A DNA stretch of 64,000 bases from Xestospongia bergquistia (Eukaryota > Porifera > Demospongiae > Haplosclerida > Petrosiidae). Positions within the stretch are counted from its first letter, which is position 1; each line of letters begins with the position of its first letter. A program made the translations under genes and the position numbers. The stretch lies in NCBI GenBank assembly GCA_963965975.1, contig OZ014412.1, forward strand, positions 14,584,849 through 14,648,848, written 5' to 3'. Below, one piece after another: positions 2,413 through 64,000 of the stretch. Below the pieces are notes generated by a model. The model was given only the letters and a program-made list of their open reading frames with translations. It did not search any database and had not been told where the DNA came from.

Positions 2413-3120
2413 ACTCTGGAGTATTTGCTTTTATTCCTTACCATGTAAGACAAACAAAACAAATGGAAGGAAAGGCAAAAGAGCTGCTGTTCTACGTATA
2501 AATGACTTTAACTGTTCCATATTGTTATTTGTATTGGATTTGTAGACCAATGTCTTAAATTTCTCTCATAATTGCCAGGAAGAAATGATAATAGCATTCT
2601 TTATAATGTATATATTGCATTTGTACTACTTGTTTGAGGACAACTTCAAAGTAAGCAACCACAGTCTCAGGTGTAGTTATAAAAGAGCTTTTTCTTAAAA
2701 AATATGAAACAGTCTGTCGTAAGTATCCCTGGATTTGTTTGCAAGAAAGCATAAACTAATGAATGTTGCTTACATTGTTTAAATGTATGTATGGAAAAGA
2801 TTAGATAAAAGAACTTTAGGCATGTCTGGAAAGTCCCATCAATGCAGATTGTATTGGCTTCACAAATTATCTTTATGTTAGTGTCTGTTGCAAATGCAAC
2901 TGTTTTGTCTTCTCCAGAACCACCTTTATGCTAAATGAAATGACTCACCAGATGCTGCCATCTTTGAAAGACCTCTTTCTTATACAGTATTGTTTCTAAA
3001 CTCATCAAACTATGTTTTTGTTGGCTCATAATTGATCCAAGAAGTGAACAGACCTTATGAAATTTAGGTAAATCTTGCAACGAGATTCACTCAACATGTT
3101 TTGAATAGTAGTTATAATGA
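2413..3120 (+). repeat. local direct duplication, copy 2, interrupted
   Basis: Second copy of 2021-2400, split by about 350 bp of unrelated sequence (roughly 2550-2890). The left half matches 2021-2165. The right half matches 2170-2400 and includes the shared block GACCTTA(C/T)GAAATTTAGGTAA. The separation suggests an insertion into the second copy or a deletion in the first. Confidence 0.7.
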
Positions 3121-43990: not shown

Positions 43991-45440
43991 TCTAATTTAA
44001 GGGGTAAATAGCAACTTTAAAATAATATTGTTAAAGTTGGTGAAATGATTCTTATAAAGTTGTGTACTGAACACCTCATATATTTGTGTTTGTAAGTCAT
44101 TACAAACTACTGGTATCACTAAATATTTGTTTATAAGTTGTTGGGTTGTGTTTATTGACAAACAATATTAGCATAATTTCTCATGTATGGAGACACCTAA
44201 AGTTTCTTTACCAAAGTTACAAAACTTTGATGATAGCCTAGTGTCTAATAATACATATTTACCTTTATTGCATTAATTAACTGAGCCTGTTTTTTTGCAT
44301 TTTTTAATTGTTAATATCATGTTCACAGGTACTTGTGACACTTACACAATAATGTAAACATTGCCATATATAGTCATCTTTGCTTCTGCTATATAAACAA
44401 AGCAATGTAGCAAGTACATTAATTAATGACATATTAAATATATATACATATAGTTAAGAGTTTAATATAGGTCCTATCAGAAATCAAAACATAGGTCATT
44501 ACAGAAAATGCTTAATACAAGTTAACAGATCTTTCTATCATGAGCCACATTATGTACATCCTTACTATCAAAAAGTCAAGACTTATTGTCTACAATTATT
44601 ATCTTGTTCCTTTCAACAATGTATTCTACTATTTGTATTAATGTATAGATATAGACAGATTGAAGGATTTAATAAATAGTTTAATAAATTTAATATTTGA
44701 AATAAGTACAGAAACAGATAAAGATATTGAGCAGTTGATAAGTGTCATAGATTGATAAAGATAATTAAAATAATTTTTGATAGTTAAACAATCAGAAGTT
44801 GAATAGTTTAATTAATCATCAATGTGGTATGTTAATAATTAATTAATTAATGAACTTTAACAGCATGAGTATTTTAATAGTACATAATTGAGATATACTT
44901 TTATTTGTGTTTGTAGACAATGTAATGTTTAAAAACAAGGATGATAGATGAAATTATATATTCATATATGTAGACTGGTAACTTTTTTATTAGTATCAAT
45001 GTATATAGCCAGTACTGTACACTGTCTTGACAGTAATATCATAGTTTTAAGCTTGTCAACTTTTCTTGACTTTTACTGTATAAATGATGGATTGTGTACA
45101 TATGTTTTTTGATAAGTAGATGAAATGATAAGTCAAATTTATTTATTAATCCATTAATGACATCAAGTATAAAGGTACAACTGATCAACAATAGAATTTA
45201 AAAGACCAAACTCTAACATTAATAAAGTGGCTATGTATGTACAATATATATAATAATAAGAGTGATGATAAAATAACAGGGAAATAATTGTTAACAAAAT
45301 ATAATAATTATTATAAAAAAATAAATAGTAGATAATAGAAAATGTAATTTAACAATAAAGAAAAGAAATAGTGCAAAAAATAATGTCATTTTAAAAAGGT
45401 TAGACAAAAACTAAATTCAAAAAAAATAAACATTTCAACT
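43991..45440. other. no gene recognised
   Basis: Very AT-rich, no exon or element ends seen. Confidence 0.4.
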
Positions 45441-45491
45441 CAACAACAATTGGGCAGTCCACTTATATTTCACTCCATACTTTGACTTTAC

Positions 45492-45660
45492 TTATGTTTT
45501 AGCTAAAAACTGTCTGATTTTCATTGCTGTTGAAGGATATTTAACTATAGCACCTTCAATTGCAGTCAAAACAACATTCCAAGTACAGGTTGATGGAAAC
45601 GTATTCATCCAGTTATGTATGACAGCAATAAGTTTGGTTGTGCTATTATCATTAGATTGT
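45492..45660 (-). pseudogene. death-domain exon relic 1
   Basis: The minus strand reads KLIAVIHNWMNTFPSTCTWN then VVLTAIEGAIVKYPSTAMKI and RQFLAKT, then TAA at 45492-45494. It is clearly homologous to the last exon of the ankyrin/Roc-COR/death gene (53518-53858), which has KLIAVLRSWMDTFPATCTWN. Nucleotide similarity extends past the stop (TATGGAGTGAAATATAA). The first half of the domain is missing: upstream is T-rich unrelated DNA. A partial duplicate of that exon on the same strand. Confidence 0.85.
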
Positions 45661-49344: not shown

Positions 49345-49565
49345 TTATTTGGTATGTACGTCTGGTTTAGCTAGAAACTCTTTCATTTTCATTGCAGTAG
49401 AATTGTGTGCTATTATAGAGCTTTCTACTGCAGCAATAACAATCGCCCAAGTCACATCAGTAGGGATCATATCTACCCAAATGTAGATTAAACCCTATTT
49501 CCATCATCTTGTGGGTTACTACTAAAACATTTAATACAAAGTGTTCCACTTCAAAGGCTTGAGTT
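49345..49565 (-). pseudogene. death-domain exon relic 2 (diverged)
   Basis: 49480-49345 reads WVDMIPTDVTWAIVIAAVES then SIIAHNSTAMKMKEFLAKPD and VHTK, stop. This is the C-terminal half of a death domain with the same layout as 53518-53858 (W....P...TW..VL.A......P.TA.KI..FLAK). Further upstream, other frames give AFEVEHFVLNVL and NPQDDGNRV, the expected first half, but with frame shifts. Third death-domain exon on this strand within 9 kb, and the most diverged. Confidence 0.75.
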
Positions 49566-49983
49566 GTCTTTTTATGCATATTTTATATCAGATAGAAGGC
49601 TAAGAAGATCCATAATGCTGGGTTCTTACTTAATGACTCATGATATCTCTATAGTAACAGGAAATTTTAAATTATTGAATGTTTGTTTTTAACTGAAAAT
49701 CAGTGTAGGGTTGACTTAATAGGATTAATACAAATACAGTAAAGCACAGTAAAAGTGAAGGCATAAATTAATTCTAGACTAAATTCTCTTGCCAAGCTCA
49801 CTTTTAACTGCAGTAGCAGCACTTTCATTAAGTTGTACTTAATTAATGTCTTTTGCTGATATGCAATCTTTACAACAAGTAAGTATTTTTGTTTTGAAAG
49901 TCTTAGGGAGAGAGGTAATAGATATGAAAGTACATTTCAGACTTAATGTTTGTCTGAACAACCAATACTAAAAATCAACAAAA

Positions 49984-51108
49984 ATGCCATATATATATAT
50001 ATATATATACAATACAACAAGCAATAAAAATACATTTAAGGAATCCATAGCAACAGAAATGGGATTTGCTCAAGCAACCAGTGATCCCTGCATATACATT
50101 GCACAAAGTGGAGAGCCATTCATAATTGGGATCTATGTTGATGACATCTTACTAGCCGGTAAAAGTGATAAGCGAATAAGTGAAGTCAAGTTAGCTCTGG
50201 CAAAGAGATTTGATGTGAAGGACTTAGGAAAACTCAACTACTTTCTAGGTGTCAAGATAGTACAGAATCACAGAGCTGGTACTATCTGGATTGGTCAACC
50301 GACCTATACAGAAGAAGTCCTAAAGAAGTTCGGTATGGAGAACTGTAAACCCCTTAATACCCCTGTAGAAGTTGGTTTGAAGTTGACAAAAGGGACAGAA
50401 GATAGTGAGTATGTTGACAAGACGCACTATCAGTCAGCAATTGGAAGTCTGTTATATCTGTTGATGAGAACACGTCCAGACATTACTTTTGCAGTAAGCC
50501 TTGCTGCATGTTTTTGTTCAGAACCTACCTCTCAACATCTGATGGCAGTCAAGTATATTTTTAGATACCTAAGAGGAAGCACACACTATTGATTGCTGTT
50601 CAAGAGAAATGGATCCAAAGCAATCATTGGATACTCCGATGCTGATTGTGGTGGTGACACCATTGACTGTAAGTCTATGACTGGTTACTTGTTCCAGATT
50701 GATGGTACAGCTATCACATGGCAGAGTAAAAAGCAATCATGTGTTGTGTTGTCCACAGCAGAAGCAGAATACGTAGCTTTATCGGGAGCTGCACAGGGAG
50801 CAGTTTGGTTGAAGCAGCTTAATCAAGATCTAACTGGAAATAGTGAGTCTGTAATAATTTATGAGGATAAGCAGTCTGCTATTGCAATTGCAAAGAATCC
50901 TCAATTTCATGGAAGAGTGAATCATGTCAACCTCAAGTATCACTTCATACGAGAGCTGGTGAACAATAACAACTATGAAATGAAATATTGTCAAACAAGT
51001 GAAATGATCACTGACATGTTAACAAAAGGACTCGGAAGGATCAAATTTGAGAAATTGAGAGCGATGACTAGGATAGTACCCCTAAAGAACCAAACAGCCT
51101 ACAAGTGA
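49984..51108 (+). mobile_element. Ty1/Copia fragment: reverse transcriptase - RNase H
   Basis: From about 50035, plus strand: the C-terminal part of a Copia reverse transcriptase (GFAQATSDPCIYIAQSGEPF, catalytic YVDD, DLGKLNYFLGVKI, RPDITFAVS, KYIFRYLRG), then one in-frame TGA (50590-50592), then RNase H in the same frame (YSDADCGGD, STAEAEYVALS, EDKQSAI, HVNLKYHFIRE, MLTKGLG) ending TGA after QTAYK. gag, protease and integrase are missing, so it is 5'-truncated. The upstream border is a (TA)n run that supplies a spurious start. A possible 3' LTR beginning follows at about 51115 but could not be paired. Confidence 0.93.
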
Positions 51109-53517: not shown

Positions 53518-53858
53518 TCAATTGTCAGTCAACAAATTTACTCCATATTTTGACTGCACCTCAGTTTTGGCTAAAAAATGTCTAATTTTCAATGCTGTTG
53601 AAGGATGCTTAACTATAGAACCTCCTATTGCTGACAAAACAACATTCCAAGTACAGGTTGCTGGAAATGTATCCATCCAGCTACGTAAGACAGCGATAAG
53701 CTTTTCTGTGTTATCATCATTACTTCGACGTAAATCACCTAAAACACGATTTTCCACTTCCAATGCCACGCCAATCTTGTTCCAGTCATACTCAATGTCA
53801 GTCAGTAGACCAACAAGATCTACAAGCTTTGGATTCTTCTCAGCAATGCAAGTGATTT
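53518..53858 (-). CDS. death-domain last exon
   Basis: Acceptor GTTTTTAATACAG. Encodes ITCIAEKNPKLVDLVGLLTD, IEYDWNKIGVALEVENRVLG, DLRRSNDDNTEKLIAVLRSW, then WNVVLSAIGG and LKIRHFLAK, TGA. The six-helix death-domain signature is visible: W-KIG--L at helix 2, the acidic SNDDNTEK loop, LIAVLRSW at helix 4-5 and W--VLSAI at helix 5-6. Relics of the same exon lie at 45492-45660 and, more diverged, 49345-49565. Confidence 0.9.
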
Positions 53859-56800
53859 CTGTATTAAAAACATACAGTTACATTACCTTAAGCAAATTGT
53901 AATAAAACAGTTAAATTCTTATGAAATGTCATATATATTATCAAGACATGCAGTTATTTAATTTATACATGTGTTAATACTTTATCTCTAATAGTGCTTA
54001 CCTAGTGGTTTTACTTCATTAAAAACAGGTCCATGTTCTATCCATGGCAATTGACGTGTTGGATCGATATCTGCTGTTAAGGAAGCATCTTTACAGCAAG
54101 TCAGCATATCTTTGTCTTCATTTGGACGACAAAGATGGTTATAGGGAGGTGGACATAGCGAGCAAAGAAAACGCTCCTGAGGTATTGAGAGAATTGGTTT
54201 ATACTGGAATTTTTTCACAACATCATTGATACATTCAAGAATAGCTTCTCTGATAGCTGAACATTTTGTAGGACGCCCAGTATAATATATCTCCAACCAA
54301 TAGATTGAGTCAACCAGTAAAACACCTCCACCAGGACCAATACATGATAACTGAATGGCATTACGATACTGCATTGATTCCTCTGGTAATTCGTCCAACT
54401 CTGATGGTCGATGTAGGTCAAATTGAGGTGAAGCACTTCGTTTTAGAAGACTAACAATCAAAGCAGTAAAAAGACCTTGTGGGATTGGTTTTGTATCCCA
54501 TGTCAAAACAAAAGAATTAAGGGTTTTCATGAATCGAGCTCTAATATTCTCCAAATTCGATGTTGTAGGTAGTACGGAAGGCATAAAAAAATTTCCCTTT
54601 TGAGGCAATGGAGCAATGACAAATCTATCATCCATCAGCTTTAAGAAATCATCTGCTGTGAAATCTGGTGTGAATCCATCTGAAAGACAGTCAAGCAACT
54701 CACGCATAAAGATACCTTCACACTTAAGTTGATGATGAGCATTCGATGGAAGAATAATACTCATTTCTTTTAAGCAATCAATAGCATCAGCGAAAGAAAT
54801 GCTAATTAATTCTGACAGCTTATTGAACAGCGGCTGTGGGTGGAGAAAAACTACATCAGGTAATACATCTGGAAAATATAAGAAAATCGTCAAATCGTGG
54901 TAGAACATGAACGCTGCCTCAACGTCTCTGCGATTCATCTTCAATGCCAACCCAATTTTCAAGCACTCCCTCTTACTGACAACCATTGACTCAGTAGTTT
55001 TCTGAAGATCCTGTAACTCTAGCTGAAACAGAAGCCATCGAGCTGGGATTTCTGCTTCTATATAAGACTTGCTAACAATTGTTCGAATAGCATCTGCAAT
55101 CTTTTTCTCATCCTCACCTCTAGCAGTTGCATTGACAGGGAATATTATTTGCTTTTCACTTTCGCAATAATTTAAACGTACGTCGCTAAATTGCTTCAAA
55201 GTAGACCACAAACGAGCATTCTTTTGCTCCAAAGACTCGCCCACGCATTCCATTACTTTGTCATAAAACGTACCTAGAACAAGAAGGGAAGGCTTAGGAT
55301 GTGAAAACTTAACGTGAATTTTGCGCAAATCAGGCTGATCTATGGATGCTAGAGAACGAAACGAAGACTCAAGTAGTTGTAAATTGGTAATCTGTCGCTT
55401 CACTGGAATGCCAATTTTTCGACCCTTCAGGCTAAAATAAAATTTAGGTTGGTCATCAAGTTTCTCGTTTAGCTTTTGTGTAAGTATATTGACTGGATTA
55501 TACCGTAGCAAGGCTGGTGCTATGTCCAAGAATGCTGCCTGTCCACCAGAATCAATACAGTGTATCCAGTGTGTGTTATAATGCTCAGGTGATTCCTCTA
55601 CTTGCACAGTTGGTAGGACTTTTACTATCTCATTAGCGACTGCTGATACAGGTGGAGATGGTGACTTATGAGAAGGAAGTGAGGTGACTTCATCAGGTTG
55701 TGTTTTATCCAATGATGGAGAAGAATGTTGTGATCCATCATCATCAGATGATGACTCACTCTCATCATTTTGAGGTCTAGTGGATTCAGATGTAGTAGTA
55801 ATGAGCCCACTTTTTACTGTTTTAGCAAGCATGTCTTTGAAAGATGACCGTTCTATTTTGCCCCAAATTTGTGTGTTGGATGAAGTGGGTTTAGATCCAG
55901 TAATGATACTGGTGGTCTCTACCTTTCTTATCTCAGGAGCAGTAGTCACTGGAGTGCTGTTGTGGTTGTCTGGAGGTGGTTCATCTAGCAAAAGTTTCAT
56001 AACAGATGACTTTCCAGTTCCTGGTGCTCCTGACATTGCCATCTTTGAGTATTTTGCTGTAATTTTTCCTTCATCAAGAGCTTTGTCAAGCAACTTAGAA
56101 TAATCTGTAGAAAAAGGATAATGAGACATGATTAATATTACATTTTGCTATTAAACAAAACAGGTTAAAGTTGAAGTATATAATACTTGTTTGATATACT
56201 GTACTTTAGACAGAACTAGACTGAGTACAACTAATTAACTGATGGTTATTACAAGGATGAAGTAATATGATAATATTACTTCTGTACATGACAAAGGTAT
56301 TTCTATTTGTATAACTGATTATAAATAAACAGATTCTAGTAATGGCTATGTGAATATAACTCAGACTATTAATACATTGTCCCAATAAGTAGTTGTTCAT
56401 GCACATACTATAGTTCCAAGTCTTCATAATATCAGATAATATGAAGTTACATTGCTGTTGTTAACCAAGCCACAGAGAATGCAAGTCTGTCTAAAATTCT
56501 TGAGGAGCAATTATAAATGAACAAGTATTAGCTTATATGCTAATGTACTGTTCACAATATTGTCATTAGCTACAATTGTAATTCCAAATGACCATATTAT
56601 AATAATTATGAACAAAGGATGAGGATGATACAAGATTACATAATGTACACCAGTACTTTGTAACACTATGTAGTAGTTTAATAGAATATATTCTAACCAA
56701 AGATCATCATCACTGCTTTCTAATTGCATATAATCTACAAGTTAAGGTTTTTTGGTTATCAAGCTTTAGAGATCAATGACCTTGTTACATCAATACTATA

Positions 56801-57190
56801 CATTGTTATTAATATATGTATCATAATGTAATGTCAAAATATTAAAATATTAAAATACAGTGGACTAAAGTAGATGGCATAATTACATAGAAACATAATT
56901 ATGAACTATTTAATTGACTAAATTGTGGATGCCATAATTGTTAAGATACTCATGCTCATATACTTAATCATTACAATATAAGTACATGTTTACTATAATG
57001 AACTACCTTTTTTGGCTTCTTCAATCAAATGTAATATAGTAGCTCTGTTCTTGTCATTAGATTTAACTTTGTCTGCAGCTTCTTTACCTTCATTGTTCTT
57101 AATGGTAGTATCAGCTCCATTAGATAAGAGTAATTTGATGCATTCAATTTTACCCCCAGAGCATGCATCATGTAATGGTGTGTCACCCAA
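53518..57190 (-). CDS. ankyrin - Roc - COR - death-domain protein
   Basis: Three spliced minus-strand exons: 57007-57190, 54002-56104 and 53518-53858 (stop TGA 53518-53520). Junctions are phase 1 throughout and open. Order: one ankyrin repeat (TPLHDACSGGKIECIKLLLS), a P-loop GTPase-like Roc domain (GAPGTGKSS, STPV, DSGGQ), a COR-like region, a Cys-rich stretch and a C-terminal death domain. This is the order of the C-terminal half of DAPK1 (ankyrin-ROCO-death). No kinase is seen. Roc-COR modules act as nucleotide switches, and death domains pair with other death-fold proteins, so a role in apoptosis or innate immune signalling is inferred. The ankyrin exon starts in phase 0 after an acceptor, so the 5' exons lie upstream and were not found before the right edge. 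The cytosolic location is inferred (no signal peptide or membrane segment). Confidence 0.88.
54002..56104 (-). CDS. Roc-COR exon (2.1 kb)
   Basis: A 2,103-bp exon between acceptor CTTTTTCTACAG and donor GTAAGCACT. Counting from the exon start, P-loop GAPGTGKS lies at about residue 26-33 and switch-like STPV at 50-53. A long Ser/Asp/Pro-rich insert (about 60-170, with DESESSSDDDGS) follows before the Walker B/G3 motif IDSGGQAAFLD (about 184-194). The G4-like GTFYDK is at about 278-283. A COR-like winged-helix region spans roughly 340-560 (LLFQLELQDLQ, FMFYHDLTIFLYFPDVLPDV, DDFLKLMDDRFVIAPL). Near the C-terminus a Cys/His-rich patch (CSLCPPPYNHLCRPNEDKDM then LTCC) may bind metal. An upstream in-frame ATG (56129) lies in the intron and is not the start. 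Confidence 0.88.
56698..56734 (-). CDS. possible 37-bp cassette exon
   Basis: Acceptor AAACCTTAACTTGTAG and donor GTTAGAATAT flank 37 bp reading DYMQLESSDDDL in the phase left by exon 57007-57190. Including it changes the exit phase, so the next codon (TG|A) would be a stop at the start of exon 54002-56104. Either not an exon, or a frame-breaking alternative exon. Confidence 0.25.
57007..57190 (-). CDS. ankyrin-repeat exon of the Roc-COR-death gene
   Basis: Acceptor TTTCATTATATAG, donor GTAGTTCATT, 184 bp. Encodes LGDTPLHDACSGGKIECIKL then LLSNGADTTIKNNEGKEAAD and a helical tail KNRATILHLIEEAKKG. One full ankyrin repeat (TPLHDAC, LLLSNGADT) and the first half of a capping one. The tail joins in phase 1 to the Roc exon (..EEAKK-DYSKLLDKALDEG). 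Confidence 0.85.
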
Positions 57191-57551
57191 CTATATAATG
57201 AAATAATATTACATATCATAAACATTGAAAACTTGTTATATACAGATATAATATTATAATAAATACAATAATGCTACTGTTTACTAATAACTCATTTTTA
57301 AATGAATATAGCATTCATACATATATATTAAAAGATAGAATAGGCCCTTCCAGTCATATTATTATTATAATACACATGGTAGCTACTCATTACATCAAGT
57401 ATCTTATCAATATATATTATTACTGATATTAACTATGTTATCTTCTAGAAGATGATGTGTTGCTAACTAATGTTGGATATGTATAACACACAACTGTTCA
57501 ACGAGAAGCTTTTTTCGTCAAAAGGCCATGTATAGAGGTCTATATCATTAA
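57191..57551. other. intron, no exon seen
   Basis: Upstream intron of the ankyrin/Roc-COR/death gene up to the piggyBac MITE. Confidence 0.5.
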
Positions 57552-58194
57552 CCCTTAGAGGACTACTGTCGCGAATTCGTGGCATGCCCACCTTCATTAC
57601 TGTCACGAAATTGTGACATGTGGAATGTTAATTAAAAATGTATTTTATTTACCTGTTCTTGTAAGTTTTAGCTTAACTTTTTTATAAAAAGCTTATCAAT
57701 ATAATCTTACATTATCACTACTATAGAACAATAAAAGACTTTGATCAGGATTTTGAAAATCGCTCATATATTAAAAGAGAGAGTGAAAGAACAGTTACGA
57801 TTATGACTGTAATAGTAATGATGAACAGGATAATGACGTCCCAGTTGTTGTCTTCAGATGAATGTTTAAAAATACAATGCTTGACTCAAGCTAATAAATC
57901 GTAGCTTTCATATATAATATGTTCACATAATTACACAAGTTGAAAAAATTACAAAACTACTAACCTGTATTCATTGCTAAGGACAGCATGTGTGTTCAAG
58001 TGTCCATGAAAATGGTCCCATAGGCAAGAACAACAAACATACATTAGTGATTGATGCCTAAAGCAATTTGCTATTGAGAAAACAGAAATTGAAGCATATA
58101 TACGCTGGTTGTTTTTATCAATTAACTCCCGTTTTTTTTTTACCTCAGTCTTGTGGTTTTAAGTGAAATTGAAATAGGCGTGGTCCTCTAAGGG
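57552..58194. mobile_element. piggyBac-type MITE (643 bp)
   Basis: Left target TTAA (57548-57551), right TTGA (58195-58198, one change). Ends CCCTTAGAGGAC and GTCCTCTAAGGG are perfect 12-bp inverted repeats. Near the left end are two near-palindromes (GTCGCGAATTCGTGGC; TGTCACGAAATTGTGACA). The right half, read on the minus strand, matches the 5' region of the element at 63074 (GCTTTAGGC, TGTTTGTTGTTCT, ACTTGAAC, GGTTAGTAGTTTTGTA). It is therefore a deletion derivative of that family. It lies in or upstream of the 5' introns of the ankyrin/Roc-COR/death gene. Confidence 0.88.
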
Positions 58195-58474
58195 TTGAAA
58201 TATTACCAACCTCAACTCAAATATAATTTTAGAAATGATATGTAATAAAAAATATAATTAGAGTCATTTTTTAACTGATAAATGTCTTATAAGCAATGTT
58301 AAGTCATCACTTAACATATGCTTTTATTTTATTAACTATTTTCATTTTTACAAATTACACTGATATAATATGTTCAAATAAAAACAGTACACGATTATAA
58401 CTGAGTACATGTACACAAAAGTCATAATATCAATGACTAGATACTACACATAATAAAATTCCATTTTACTTTTA
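58195..58474. other. spacer with a short repeat
   Basis: 58395-58465 (ACATGTACA...AAAAGTCATAATATC..TGACTAGAT) is similar to 61850-61912. No gene. Confidence 0.5.
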
Positions 58475-58862
58475 CACTAGATCCTCGGTTATACAAATTT
58501 TGATTATCCAAATGTGACTTTGCAAAGCCACACATATAATAATGAACTATATATACTTATTGGTTCTAATCTGCTGTCCATGTTGAGTATAATTGTGTGT
58601 GAAAATGACATTGCTTGAACCACCAAAGCCTGCAGCCAAAGCCCAGAAAAGTAAGAGAAAAAGTTTTGATGATTAAGGAAAAGCTAGAAATCTGAAGAGA
58701 ATTATCTATTACTTATTAGTAGTTATTAAATATTACTTCATTTTGTTCATTATCACAATAGAATGGTGTTTATCATACAAATTGTATTCTATTGATTAAA
58801 AATAGTTGTTTTAATGATTCATTCACTTATTTGAACAAATTCACTTATCTGAACACTTATAA
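58475..58862 (+). mobile_element. pogo/Tigger-like remnant
   Basis: Begins with GATCCTCGGTTATACAAATT followed by TTGATTATCCAAATG, the 'CCTCGGTTATNCGAA...GATTATCC' style of pogo/Tigger ends. It ends near CACTTATTTGAACAAATTCA and CACTTATCTGAACA. Between them ATG at about 58605 opens MTLLEPPKPAAKAQKSKRKS then FDD and a stop, like the start of a CENP-B/Tigger DNA-binding domain. A strongly deleted, dead element. Ends are judged by eye; no TA duplication was confirmed. Confidence 0.45.
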
Positions 58863-60069
58863 AAAATATCATAAACAAAACTTTTGGATAATTGAAGATG
58901 TGTTGTATAAAAATGGAGTCTTTAAAGTAATAAGATTGACAAATAATAAGACATATGTGACCAAAATACAAAAATGGTATGTAACACAAGTAAATTTCAA
59001 GTGAATGCTTGCACATAAATGGTTGCTTTGTGGCCACCTTAAATACAAAGTCACTAAATTTAAGATATGAGAAGTTTCATGAATGCTTTTATGGTTACCA
59101 AATTCCAATGACTTCTTGTTCAAAATTAACATGTAGCAGTTGCTTCAATGCAAGCACTTGTTTGAAATTAGTTTGCACGTTAGGTATCATTTTCCTATTT
59201 TTGGTCACATAAGTCTCAGGTGTATGTTTAATAATAATGTATGAAATGTTCATTCATTTTATACAAGAAGTTTGGCATAAGGAATGATACTACCATACAT
59301 AATAATCTGGTTGTGCAATGCTGAGCTAATAATTTTGTAAATAATATATTCTATTGTGATTAATCGCTATTAATACATTACGATAATGATTGATATGAAC
59401 TGGAATTTGAAGAACAAATTCTTATGTAGACTTAATCAAGTCACTAACAATAAGAAATTCTATTACACAAATCTTTCAAAATAAAATAACAGAGCATAAT
59501 TAGTATTCTAAGTAATAAACAATATCCTGCTATATTAGCTTTATTGCTACTGAGAGTGTAAAACAATTTGTCTGATATATTAGACTAAAAGTAATTAAGA
59601 CTGCCTAGTTAGTGCAAGGACTATAGTAAATGTAGGCATGATGTTTATATTATGTAGGCTTTTCAAATTAGAGATAACTTCATTCTAACTAATTGTAGTC
59701 ACTAGGTCAGTGGAGTTCACCCTCAAATACACAATTATAAACATATTAGCACTTTACTACACACTACAACCATGCTTTCTTTATGATCTCTTACATCAAC
59801 CCACCATTTAAATATGTATATTAGCACTGTATATTACAGATACTATGTTATTTTATCTTAATTATAGCTACTACAATAACAAATTTTGTCTTTGAAATTA
59901 TTTTAGGAGTGCATATACATACAAAGTTGTATGAAACACAACTATATGCACACAATTATAAACACACTACTACTATACTACATACTGAAGGAATGACTTC
60001 TTTATATTATCTGACACTAGCAAACATATTTTAATTATATCTCATAGTGGCCAGATGTGATGGATACAT
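58863..60069. other. no gene recognised
   Basis: AT-rich. Three overlapping medium-length open frames near 58870-59210 have no similarity or splice context. Confidence 0.4.
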
Positions 60070-60074
60070 GACAA

Positions 60075-60690
60075 CAATAATCATTTGGAAAATACTGATG
60101 TTAAAAATGTACAACACATCCTATAATGCAAACTTTTCAGGCTGTAACTATTAAACGGTACTTGTGTTAAACTTCAATTAATTATAATAAATTAAGGTAC
60201 TACTTGTTTATATATTGCAACCTAATTAATTTGTTCTGTAGATAGGAAATCTGTAAAAATCCTCCCAATATTGAGCCTACTTAATGATCATCACTAAATA
60301 TAGAGATGCATCATGATGTTTCTTGGAGATAAATCTCATCTATAATAACTACAGCTACATGAGAAGTTTTAAGCTTGTAACATTAAGTTTTCTGTCTGTC
60401 AAGACAAACATTTTTTGGTCATCTATAAGGTTTCTTGGCTATGCTGAATTTTTAAAGTCACATTGAGCTTTTGTCATGCAATATTTTAACCTATGCTATT
60501 TTTGTCCAAGGACAAACAATTGATAGGAAAGTTTTAATTCCACCATTCAATTTTGTTCTTGTCAAGATTAAGTTGAAATAGAAAGTATGGATGAGAGAGA
60601 TGACGTAATTAATGAAGCTTTTCGTTATGTGTATGAGATGAAATATCCAGATGGAGCCAGAGCAAACAGTTATCACATTATCTCAGCCCT
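60075..60690 (+). repeat. dispersed repeat D, copy 2
   Basis: Direct partner of 31665-32275. Encodes MDERDDVINEAFRYVYEMKY then PDGARANSYH near its right end, after which the copies diverge. The peptide is conserved in sense between copies (D/E, V/I-type changes), suggesting it was once coding. Confidence 0.8.
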
Positions 60691-61348
60691 CAATTAATTA
60701 TTTTCATACAGTAGGACGTTGTAATCACTGTTGATATTCCATAACTACTCAAAGAAAAGCCTTGTTTGAGAATGAAAGAAGAAATAATAGAAATAGTACA
60801 GCAGGAACATAAGAACAACAGGATTGAAAGCATTCAATTCTTACAAAGTTTGAAGTTGGAGTCAAAGTTATGAAAAAGTTTTTTTGATAATTTTTATCTT
60901 AGGATCACATATTGCAAGCAGATTTCTATCCTAAGATAAAATATTGAAAAGCATTTTTAATTCTTGTACAAAATATCACACCATTGTCCTAAGATAAATT
61001 TTGTGCTGGTAGGATCAATCCTGCAATATTATTTTATTGTAGGATTTGATAACCCTGCTATAATTGTCTAATAGGACAAACTCTAAGTATGATAATATCT
61101 GTCATAACAGGTATTGTATTTTTGTAAGCAAATATGTCATCTTGTGTTAATTATGATTGCACAATTACTACAATAATCACTTTTGTCTGTGAATTTATTT
61201 TAGGAGTGTCTATGTAACAACTTATAGATAATTAAATCACAAATAGCTACATAATTACATGTATTAATAACAACATTATATACAAAATATAGTCATGTAT
61301 AATACACAGTGATAAAGGAATATAAGCTTGAAGGCCAAAACCAGGTAA
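60691..61348. other. no gene recognised
   Basis: Contains several TCCTAAGATAAA / TATCTTAGGAT inverted motifs (60890-61000) but no clear element. Confidence 0.4.
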
Positions 61349-61546
61349 ATAAAACTGGACCAGCTTGATGCAGAGGCAGCTTTCAAATGCCTTACTGCCA
61401 AAACAGGTCCTGGATTGTCAGCTATATCCAGAGCAAATATGAACAACAAGAAACATAAACAACCAGATAAAAAAAGAGAGGCCAAAACATTACTAGGCAA
61501 CAAATATAAGCAATACGTCCAAGAAGAAATAGCTACTTCAGCCTAA
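61349..61546 (+). pseudogene. orphan coding fragment, unknown
   Basis: A 65-codon open stretch after a stop: KLDQLDAEAAFKCLTAKTGP then GLSAISRANMNNKKHKQPDK and KREAKTLLGNKYKQYVQEEI ATSA, stop. The local base composition is less AT-rich and codon use looks protein-like. No ATG near its start and no convincing acceptor (AACCAG/GTAAAT lies just before but gives a stop). Probably the C-terminal end of a degraded transposon or host ORF. Family unknown. Confidence 0.35.
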
Positions 61547-63069
61547 AAAGATGCTACCATTTTGATTATCTACGTTCATAAAAGTAATCCTTATTGAGTA
61601 GGTACCACTTTAGAAGGATTTGCACAGTCATAATAATAGTGACAATAATTTTGTTACAACAAGAGGGCTATTAAAAAATCAAGATTTGTCATCACACACT
61701 AACACATGACTGTTTTGCAACTATAACTGCATGTCTTGTTTAAAATAAAGAAAAAAGTCTAGGACTTATTTTAGTATTAACTAAAATGGAGAAAAAATTG
61801 CCTTCTCTGTTGTTATTAAACACTACCTAATAAGAAGTTATAACAATGTAACTGACATGTACAAAAAGTCATAATATCTATGGCTAGATTCCTCACATAA
61901 TATAAATTCAGACTTAAATACTGCATAAATGGACTGTCTCAAGTAGTAACTTTGACAAGTTATAAGACCATATTAATATGTCTTAGGTGTGTGTTTCACA
62001 CTGCAACATCTAATGTACATTGATTACACACAATATAAAAGTTTAATGTTAAAAAAATAGGACTAAAAAAATAATGGAGCACAAAAACATCAGGTTGTGG
62101 CAATAGCTCTTTGTACATATACATATTGTTAATTCTTACCAAAATGTAATAATTACTAACAATAACCTGCTGTGTAAATATCACCTTAAATGTCATATTG
62201 TAAGGTTATTGTAATCATTAAGAAATCTGAGTATTTCCTTATACAAATTCACTATATTATGTCAATATAAAATGCCAGGGTATAATTTATCAAAGTAAAA
62301 AACAGCTTTTTGATGTATTCACTTTATTGCTAGCACTACTGATAGGGTTAACCCATTTAACCTTTACAATAGAATAAACATTATGAAGATACTGACTTTA
62401 GTCAGTACTAAGGTTATAGTAGATGTAGCCATGCTGTTTTACAAAAGTACTGATATCTATGCGTTTGAATGTTAAAATTAATTAATTATATTTTAGCTTA
62501 TAGGTTAACTGGCATCACCAGAGATGCAATGAATATGTGATAAATCACACTGTAAACAAATTGTGTAATGGTTTTAGTAAAAAAATTGTGTAGCAAATAT
62601 GTCTAGCCTCACTATTAGTTTTGAAGCTTAAACAAAAGAGGGAGAGGTGTCCTTGTAGTCATTTTACTTCTATAGCTTTGGGAGAGTCCCAGATTACCAT
62701 ACATTGCTAGAATTTTTGTAATCATTAGTATATGAGAGTATCTGATGAAGATATAATTATTGTAGTGCAGTGATATTGAGGTAATCATGTAATACATAAG
62801 AAATATATGACGTCAATGATGTTGTAGAGAAGCAATTGCATAATAGATACTCTCATAATAGTGATGTAAAGTACATACCTTGTTGTAATGGTAACATACT
62901 ATATAAAACACCTCTTATTTGTCAGAATACTTCTGTTTGTTAGTATGTTCTAACTGTGCTTATAAATTATTCATAGTTGATATATAATATTAACTTGCGA
63001 TATTAACAGGTTATAGTATATAAACACATTTTAAATTATATCTCTATGATCATTATGATAATTATGTAT
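61547..63069. other. no gene recognised
   Basis: AT-rich. 61850-61912 is similar to 58395-58465. GGGTTAACCC at about 62346 is a short palindrome. Confidence 0.4.
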
Positions 63070-63073
63070 TTAA

Positions 63074-64000
63074 CCCTTAGAGGACCACGCCTATTAATTA
63101 ACATGAAACCACAGGAATTATGTGAGAGCAAGTAAAAAAATGGTTGTTTATTGAGGAAGAAGACAAGTATATATACGCTTGAATTTCACTCTTCTCAAGT
63201 AGATGAGTTGCTTTAGGCTGTCTACAAGAACGATGTGTTTGTTGTTCTGACCTATCAGACCATTACTTTGGATACTTGAACGCGCCTGCTGTCCATAGCA
63301 ACGTGTAAAGGTTAGTAGTTTTGTATGTTCTTTTACTTATATAATGAAATGAATATGTGATAAATGAAGAACTATGATTGATGAGTATCTGTTAGGTGTG
63401 ATATTTTCTAAAACACTCGTCTGGTCACAACGCTGGATTCTCTGGACAAGTCTGACAGACAAACAATGTTAGGTGGTGTTTTTCACTTTTATCACTACAG
63501 ACAACGCAATCTCTCCTCTTTTGTTCTCTTTTTCAAGTAATGAACACCCTTTGGATTCTTGGTAGCAGTAGCAGAGACTGATGGTGTGACAGAAAGTGAT
63601 ACTTCTCTCTCTTCAAGTAATGGTTCAACAAGACATTGAATAAAGATAAGACATTCTGTGTTTGTTACCTTTGTTAGTGTCTTGATATAATTATAATATA
63701 TACATTCACAACAACCACTTCTAGCATCCAAAAGAATACTTTTTTCCACTATTTTATGGACTTGTGTATAAAGAGTAATATGCCATTAACTGGTCAAGCT
63801 TGTCTCCAAGCATATAATAATTGTACTCATGCATGTCCAGTAGTTTCTCTTTTGTAGAATCTGTTGACCTTATATTGATATAGAATATTAAACCATTATT
63901 GTACATATTATCATTATAATAATTACATAGAGTTACCATTGTCATTTTACCTGGGTTGTATTTCTATCATCTTGTTATTGTATTTTGTTGAACACATTAG
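63074..64000. mobile_element. piggyBac element, cut by the window edge
   Basis: TTAA (63070-63073) then CCCTTAGAGGACCACGCCTA, matching the right end of the MITE at 57552-58194 (inverted). The similarity continues through about 63330 (GCTTTAGGC, TGTTTGTTGTTCT, GGTTAGTAGTTTTGTA). Beyond that, minus-strand frames show piggyBac transposase C-terminal sequence. The other end lies outside the window. This is the likely parent family of the MITE. Confidence 0.85.
63430..63945 (-). pseudogene. piggyBac transposase C-terminal part, frameshifted, partial
   Basis: The minus strand, from high to low, reads EKLLDMHEYNYYMLG(V)DKL with DQLMAYYSLYTSP (the 'GVDKLDQ..YY' block near the last catalytic Asp of piggyBac transposases). 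Then, after frame changes, it reads LEVVVVNVYIIII (the 'NAY' helix), a linker with VSLSVTPSVSATATKNPKGV, and a Cys-rich end: CVVCSDKSEKHHLTLFVCQT then CPENPAL. The CxxC...CxxC tail is the piggyBac cysteine-rich domain. At least two frame changes make it a pseudogene. The N-terminal part lies beyond the edge. Confidence 0.75.

Follow-up and report, generated by a model that had tools for sequence, protein, structure and literature searches.

A probable family of kinase-less ROCO-type switch genes with exchanged input and output modules in the sponge Xestospongia bergquistia

ROCO proteins such as LRRK2 and DAPK1 have mostly been studied as kinases, and DAPK1 carries ankyrin repeats in addition. 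PMC6337361 treats DAPK1 as the third ROCO group and supplies an analogy in which Roc, through its nucleotide state, and the dimer formed by COR would control the flanking parts of ROCO proteins. Prokaryotic AP-GTPase-COR conflict systems place a Roc/AP-GTPase-COR core next to exchangeable partners, a caspase included, and an expansion of TRADD-N and death-fold proteins in the sponge Amphimedon amounts to 357 proteins (both PMC8195603). Leucine-rich repeat (LRR) ROCO genes of brown algae have been proposed as immune receptors with exon shuffling (PMC11378527), and the sea-anemone gene NG3, reported as novel from three anemone species, adds a kinase and a TIR domain to Roc/COR and a death domain (PMC5094078). 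Here we describe a gene at 53518-57190 on the minus strand of a 64,000-nucleotide stretch of contig OZ014412.1 of Xestospongia bergquistia (the window), in which an ankyrin-repeat exon, a long exon with a predicted Roc-COR unit (the switch exon) and a death-domain exon join in phase. Comparison with its relatives shows that input and output modules are exchanged around a near-constant switch exon, and it is this exchange on both sides that constitutes the new part. Jointly with this exchange, we consider it probable that the gene is one member of an expanded, many-copy family of ROCO (AP-GTPase) proteins lacking a kinase.

The first-pass annotation of the window had treated the gene as a lone regulator corresponding to half of DAPK1, and neither description was supported once the rest of the genome was considered. 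The near-constant switch exon, about 700 codons long, occurs at least 62 times in the source genome (146 Mb, 21 contigs). This is a lower bound: 657 candidates came up at first look, of which 62 were scored, giving 66 rows, and four short partial rows were dropped. Fifty-six of the 62 are located on contigs C1, C2, C3, C11 and C12, many of them in same-strand arrays, and 59 are free of internal stops, the remaining three being broken. Compared with its three nearest copies (synonymous divergence, dS, 0.76-0.79), the whole switch exon of the window gene gives a ratio of non-synonymous to synonymous substitution (dN/dS) of 0.21-0.23; by part, the ratio is 0.12-0.13 in the P-loop, 0.14-0.15 in G3-G5, 0.16-0.17 in COR and 0.57-0.90 in the acidic linker. 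Eight more distant comparisons had a dS above 1 or undefined and were not relied on. The switch exon is thus under purifying selection, and a chance origin of the window gene is excluded because the exon recurs at 61 further places and shows this low whole-exon dN/dS. The surrounding transposons, a 12.6-kb tandem duplication upstream, relic death exons downstream and the internal stops of the three broken family exons would accord with a gene that is decaying, or already a pseudogene, within an amplified array. However, the frames and splice sites of the window gene are intact, and dN/dS outside the acidic linker stays at 0.12-0.17 (P-loop, G3-G5 and COR), which makes decay quite improbable.

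Exchange on the output side is seen when switch exons and the death exons that follow them are compared across loci. Over 210 pairs of 21 loci, switch identity and death identity are moderately correlated (r 0.53), and individual pairs depart from this relation in both directions: L036 and L039 are 94% identical in the switch versus 37% in the death exon, and L015 and L017 are 65% identical in the switch versus 91% in the death exon. Six pairs were picked for inspection. In five of them, the window gene with L015 among these, the DNA alignment ends where the switch exon does (3' end) or within the intron that follows, or else resumes past it with a higher identity; in the sixth (L014/L024) it is continuous. 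Window gene and L015 are 84% identical over a stretch that opens upstream of the ankyrin exon and stops about 40 bp short of the switch end, after which the two become unalignable, and the 3' DNA of L015 and L017 is 85% identical over 1.1 kb versus 71% for their switch exons in the DNA alignment. Both death exons could be located in 29 of the 72 pairs with a switch identity of at least 80%; they are unalignable in 16 of these 29, window gene included, and 20 of the 29 keep at least half of 600 bp upstream alignable. Downstream of the window gene, at distances of about 4 and 8 kb, are two broken death-exon relics; one matches the death-exon type of the gene and the other does not, as expected if replacement had been followed by decay.

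On the input side, a Pfam Peptidase_C14 (caspase-like) match lies 51-526 bp upstream of the switch exon on the same strand in 28 of the 62 family genes, namely all 17 on C11, all 11 on C12 and none of the 34 elsewhere. The switch-exon acceptor is in phase 1 in 29 of 29 loci. In each of the nine C11 genes read, the caspase-like exon has a phase-1 donor, is followed by an intron of 52 bp (eight genes) or 55 bp (one gene) and joins in frame at the D of DYS, the residue at which the ankyrin exon of the window gene joins as well. An ankyrin exon precedes the switch in 11 of 30 loci, the window gene among them; L019, with a partial ankyrin match by tblastn, is not counted in these 11, and the C3 member L051 has no ankyrin or caspase module within 1.5 kb upstream (frames judged by eye). 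In a tree of 29 switch exons, a single change with a support of 100/100 splits the ten ankyrin rows from the eight caspase rows, 11 rows being unlabelled. Judged by its sequence, the caspase-like module is a pseudo-caspase, so called because the catalytic His motif is altered in all ten genes read (seven of the ten aligned with a canonical copy from the same genome; L041, which recurs in L049, is counted once); with Cys retained in eight of the ten, none shows the His and Cys together. A CAP-Gly part before the caspase-like domain is tentative: it is over the Pfam cut-off in one of two proteins, and the genome search lists none for either the C11 or the C12 array. Two C11 genes also have a conserved, helical-looking exon of 104 residues 5' of their caspase-like exons (L049:9399-9713 and 2599-2913, minus strand); it appears CARD- or DED-like by eye, and L049:9399-9713 had no Pfam match near the cut-off.

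The switch exon is, as far as sequence comparison goes, a Roc-COR unit, with the Roc, COR and death assignments made through paralogues and one intermediate (L054, on contig C10), not on the window exons directly. L054 is an end-to-end homologue of the window switch exon (BLASTP 3e-22, 22% identity over 583 positions) in which Pfam recognises Roc over the cut-off (1.5e-10) and COR-A (1.2e-14), and its PDB search returned LRRK2 (4e-4), LRRK1 (7e-4) and two prokaryotic Roco structures (0.003 and 0.01); a PDB profile search with the switch exon itself gave nothing relevant. Thirty switch exons were retrieved and, once near-copies and one broken copy had been set aside, 22 were aligned; Pfam Roc matched neither the window exon nor any of these 22 members. 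The Roc domain is recognised via L054 combined with the invariant P-loop core, DSGGQ and TxxD. COR-A was found in six of the 22 members scanned singly (best 3.7e-9) and, among the matches listed in the genome-wide scan, in 29 of the 62 family exons (12 on C11, 11 on C12, six on C3 and none elsewhere), so that the position of COR directly after Roc is family evidence, COR not being called on the window exon. Its proposed location at residues 340-560 agrees with where the COR-A match begins in three paralogues (Table 1). Throughout the genome, COR-A occurs in at least 146 places and Death in at least 150.

A family profile placed a death exon within about 1.5 kb downstream of the switch in 23 of 30 loci. 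Pfam Death matched three of 12 death-exon members scanned (best 2.1e-6), the window exon not being one of the three, and was over the cut-off in a C11 member (2.5e-5); against PDB, the family profile reached the death domain of THOC1 at 7e-4, FADD, CRADD and PIDD at 0.1 to 2 and one unrelated protein at 0.45. The C-terminal death domain, a feature shared with DAPK1, is accordingly assigned on family evidence. Combined with the splice sites read directly, these results bear out the parts listed in the first-pass annotation: in-phase ankyrin, GAPGTGKS, DSGGQ, COR-like and C-terminal death parts are all present on the minus strand, COR and death by family evidence. The ankyrin part is likewise real, as one recognised repeat rather than the array that had been assumed; a possible second repeat, at 73.1 kb, is considered below.

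No kinase had been visible at first pass, and kinase exons upstream had been named as the finding that would make the gene simply DAPK1. None was found: Pfam matched no family in the three minus frames of 57190-64000 and no family other than an ankyrin repeat in 68.6-76.2 kb, and a motif scan of both strands of 53-93 kb, the one scan to cover 64-68.6 kb with its gypsy-type element on the other strand, detected no kinase motif. Within these stretches, which end at 93 kb, the N-terminal Ser/Thr kinase of DAPK1 was not found. Among 132 kinase matches listed (127 of 1263 candidates scored), the nearest kinase on the window contig is at 15.43 Mb, 0.78 Mb off. A DAPK1 orthologue or fragment, with its kinase exons further upstream or lost, would have the same ankyrin-Roc-COR-death order as the C-terminal half of DAPK1, and the 5' end of the window gene is unseen. 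Yet the empty kinase scans, the distance to the nearest listed match, the at least 62 family exons with a caspase-like exon before 28 of them, and a member of another ankyrin-Roc family (L046) that reaches Roc from Met and ankyrins with no kinase all argue against it, and we regard this explanation as very improbable.

That second ankyrin-Roc family of the same genome (L043, L044, L045 and L046) has Pfam Roc over the cut-off and no COR-A among the matches listed. L046 is an open frame of 1295 residues running from Met through many ankyrin repeats to the Roc part, and the death-like exons 3' of L044 and L045 match the window death exon by tblastn at 5e-15 and 3e-13. Contig C8 has, at 7.277-7.299 Mb, three copies of a gene whose single frame of 1639-1871 codons matches Roc, COR-A and a kinase, an LRRK-like order.

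Several observations weigh against a family of ROCO switches with exchanged modules. Thirteen of the 29 high-identity pairs retain an alignable death exon, and common ancestry keeps such pairs from being independent tests; coverage per locus reached about 1.5 kb downstream, and several alternative death exons per gene could mimic part of the signal. Half of the 22 non-caspase loci have an ankyrin exon before the switch, and no input module was recognised in the remaining 11. Under a strict donor pattern, the switch exon is followed by a phase-1 donor at five of 29 loci, and the death acceptor is in phase 1 at 16 of 22, so that the phase 1-1 symmetry is established for the window gene and not as a general rule. 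The product of the window gene is visible over 875 residues (from exon ends), its N-terminus being open with the 5' end unseen. On the side of domain identity, Pfam on the window's own exons gave no Roc, COR or Death match, an alignment of profiles to the ankyrin-Roc family L043-L046 spanned only 26 columns around the P-loop at a probability of 8%, and AlphaFold2 from single sequences reached a predicted local distance difference test (pLDDT) of 34.7 and 48.7, with no usable model. Weak P-loop matches with E up to 1 point the same way: 12 of the 22 aligned members hit AAA_22 and ten of the 22 hit YobI-ATPase.

Two alternatives draw on these observations. If death exons were not exchanged and each gene instead had several alternative ones, different exons might have been detected at different loci; L033 has two death-like stretches downstream, and the relics about 4 and 8 kb beyond the window gene could be taken in the same sense. 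However, those downstream copies are broken, and alternative exons alone do not yield a 3' DNA of L015 and L017 that is more similar than their switch exons, leaving this explanation rather unlikely. Alternatively, the switch could be an ATP-dependent STAND- or AAA-like module and not a GTPase, for which the GAPGTGKS P-loop, the weak AAA_22 and YobI-ATPase matches and a NACHT match of 0.18 in L054, far under the cut-off, might be quoted. By contrast, the DSGGQ and TxxD motifs, COR-A downstream and end-to-end homology to a protein with Pfam Roc over the cut-off favor a Roc-COR switch, and neither domain typical of NLR/STAND proteins, NACHT or NB-ARC, appears among the 19 families that Pfam listed over the 22 members. 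An ATPase switch has, in our judgment, little chance of being correct.

The features of the window gene and its downstream relics are collected in Table 1. Both introns of the gene are phase 1. With a slash at the exon boundary, the splice sites read ...AAAAAAG/GTAGTT 3' of the ankyrin exon and CTACAG/ATTATTC 5' of the switch exon, then CACTAG/GTAAGC 3' of the switch exon and ATACAG/AAATCAC 5' of the death exon. Decay around the relic at 49348..49494 extends to about 49640 (by eye).

Table 1. Coordinates in the window of the gene, its motifs and the death-exon relics
Feature	Position	Strand	Details
Ankyrin-repeat exon	57007..57190	-	Pfam Ank 6e-10, one repeat; starts in phase 0, ends in phase 1; splice sites read
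Switch exon, divergent Roc then COR	54002..56104	-	2103 nt, single open frame; phase 1 on both sides in the window gene
Death-domain exon including stop codon TGA	53518..53858	-	Family profile; splice site read
P-loop (G1) GAPGTGKS	56007..56030	-	G26, A27, P28, T30, G31 and K32 invariant in 22/22 aligned members; 29 is G/A, 33 is S/T
Variable acidic, Ser-rich linker, G1-G3	55611..55925	-	dN/dS 0.57-0.90, three nearest paralogues
G3 motif DSGGQ	55539..55553	-	Invariant in 22/22
G4-like GTFYD (TxxD)	55260..55274	-	G278, T279 and D282 invariant in 22/22; opposite GTHGD of L054 in the alignment
COR-A region	54606..55070	-	Position inferred from paralogues; in three of them the match begins 354-358 residues from the exon start
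Truncated relic, same death-exon type as window gene	45419..45654	-	80.5% DNA identity over 236 bp; first half gone, early stop
Decayed relic, other death-exon type	49348..49494	-	Profile match 2.4e-16; frame broken before the match

A second single-repeat ankyrin exon of fitting phase is present at 73201-73103, 16 kb upstream of the window gene. Its phase 0 and 33-residue period would suit a 5' exon of this gene, and it was left unassigned because 40 further-scored copies of its DNA are listed. A 12.6-kb tandem duplication spans about 63300-89000 in window coordinates, mostly past the window end (L010-L012), at 99.6% identity over 8.2 kb; each unit has a one-repeat ankyrin exon and transposon frames, which we take to be transposase-like and gypsy-like. 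Two frames with a stop between them, presumably the reverse transcriptase/RNase H end of a copia-type element, occupy 49972-51108.

Taken together, the evidence favors a switch family of ROCO type in which both the input and the output module can be exchanged, and its members would likely act as death or immune regulators. Modules may have been exchanged by breaks in the flanking introns together with tandem duplication. In such a protein the ankyrin part would bind a ligand or partner, with the pseudo-caspase module of paralogues serving as an alternative input receiver; the nucleotide state of Roc would alter the Roc-COR dimer, and this change could expose or cluster the death domain, which might then recruit partners by death-domain assembly toward a death, NF-kB-like or allorecognition response. 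For the window gene, GTP binding, dimerisation, ligand sensing and death-domain assembly are predicted by analogy with described systems, and an involvement in death or immunity would be plausible. More tentatively, the constant switch exon could be the socket of a combinatorial death/immune receptor system, in which ankyrin or histidine-less caspase inputs and different death-domain outputs are recombined via the flanking introns, such that recognition and downstream partner vary independently over dozens of genes; we regard this as possible, short of an even chance. Diversity in receptor families usually resides on the sensing side, and independent exchange of the output domain would be unusual against that background. 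With a large family joining Roc-COR to a bare death domain, the kinase-independent action of the switch could be studied in isolation, and natural swaps on near-identical switches (L036, L039) offer ready-made material for studying death-domain specificity.

Among titles and abstracts searched in the open-licence literature, no equivalent family was found, most subscription journals being outside that search. With DAPK1 the window gene shares the ankyrin-Roc-COR-death order, but it differs in having no kinase found, a very divergent Roc, at least 62 family exons and exchange of modules. NG3 resembles it in combining Roc/COR with a death domain and, unlike it, has the kinase and TIR domain (PMC5094078). 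The LRR-ROCO genes of brown algae are similar as shuffled ROCO genes proposed to be immune receptors (PMC11378527), whereas whole input and output modules change in the sponge family described here. The Amphimedon expansion is comparable in its very large death-fold repertoire and its varied architectures including ankyrins and caspases (PMC8195603); by contrast, TRADD-N is absent from the Pfam matches of the three window exons, and the center of the window family is Roc-COR. The prokaryotic AP-GTPase-COR conflict systems have the same core and exchangeable partners, caspase included, whereas the window family consists of animal-type multi-exon genes with exchange at intron breaks, a C-terminal death domain and a caspase-like module without the catalytic His. 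By analogy, the logic of these prokaryotic conflict proteins (PMC8195603), a constant switch with varying partners, would fit the sponge family best.

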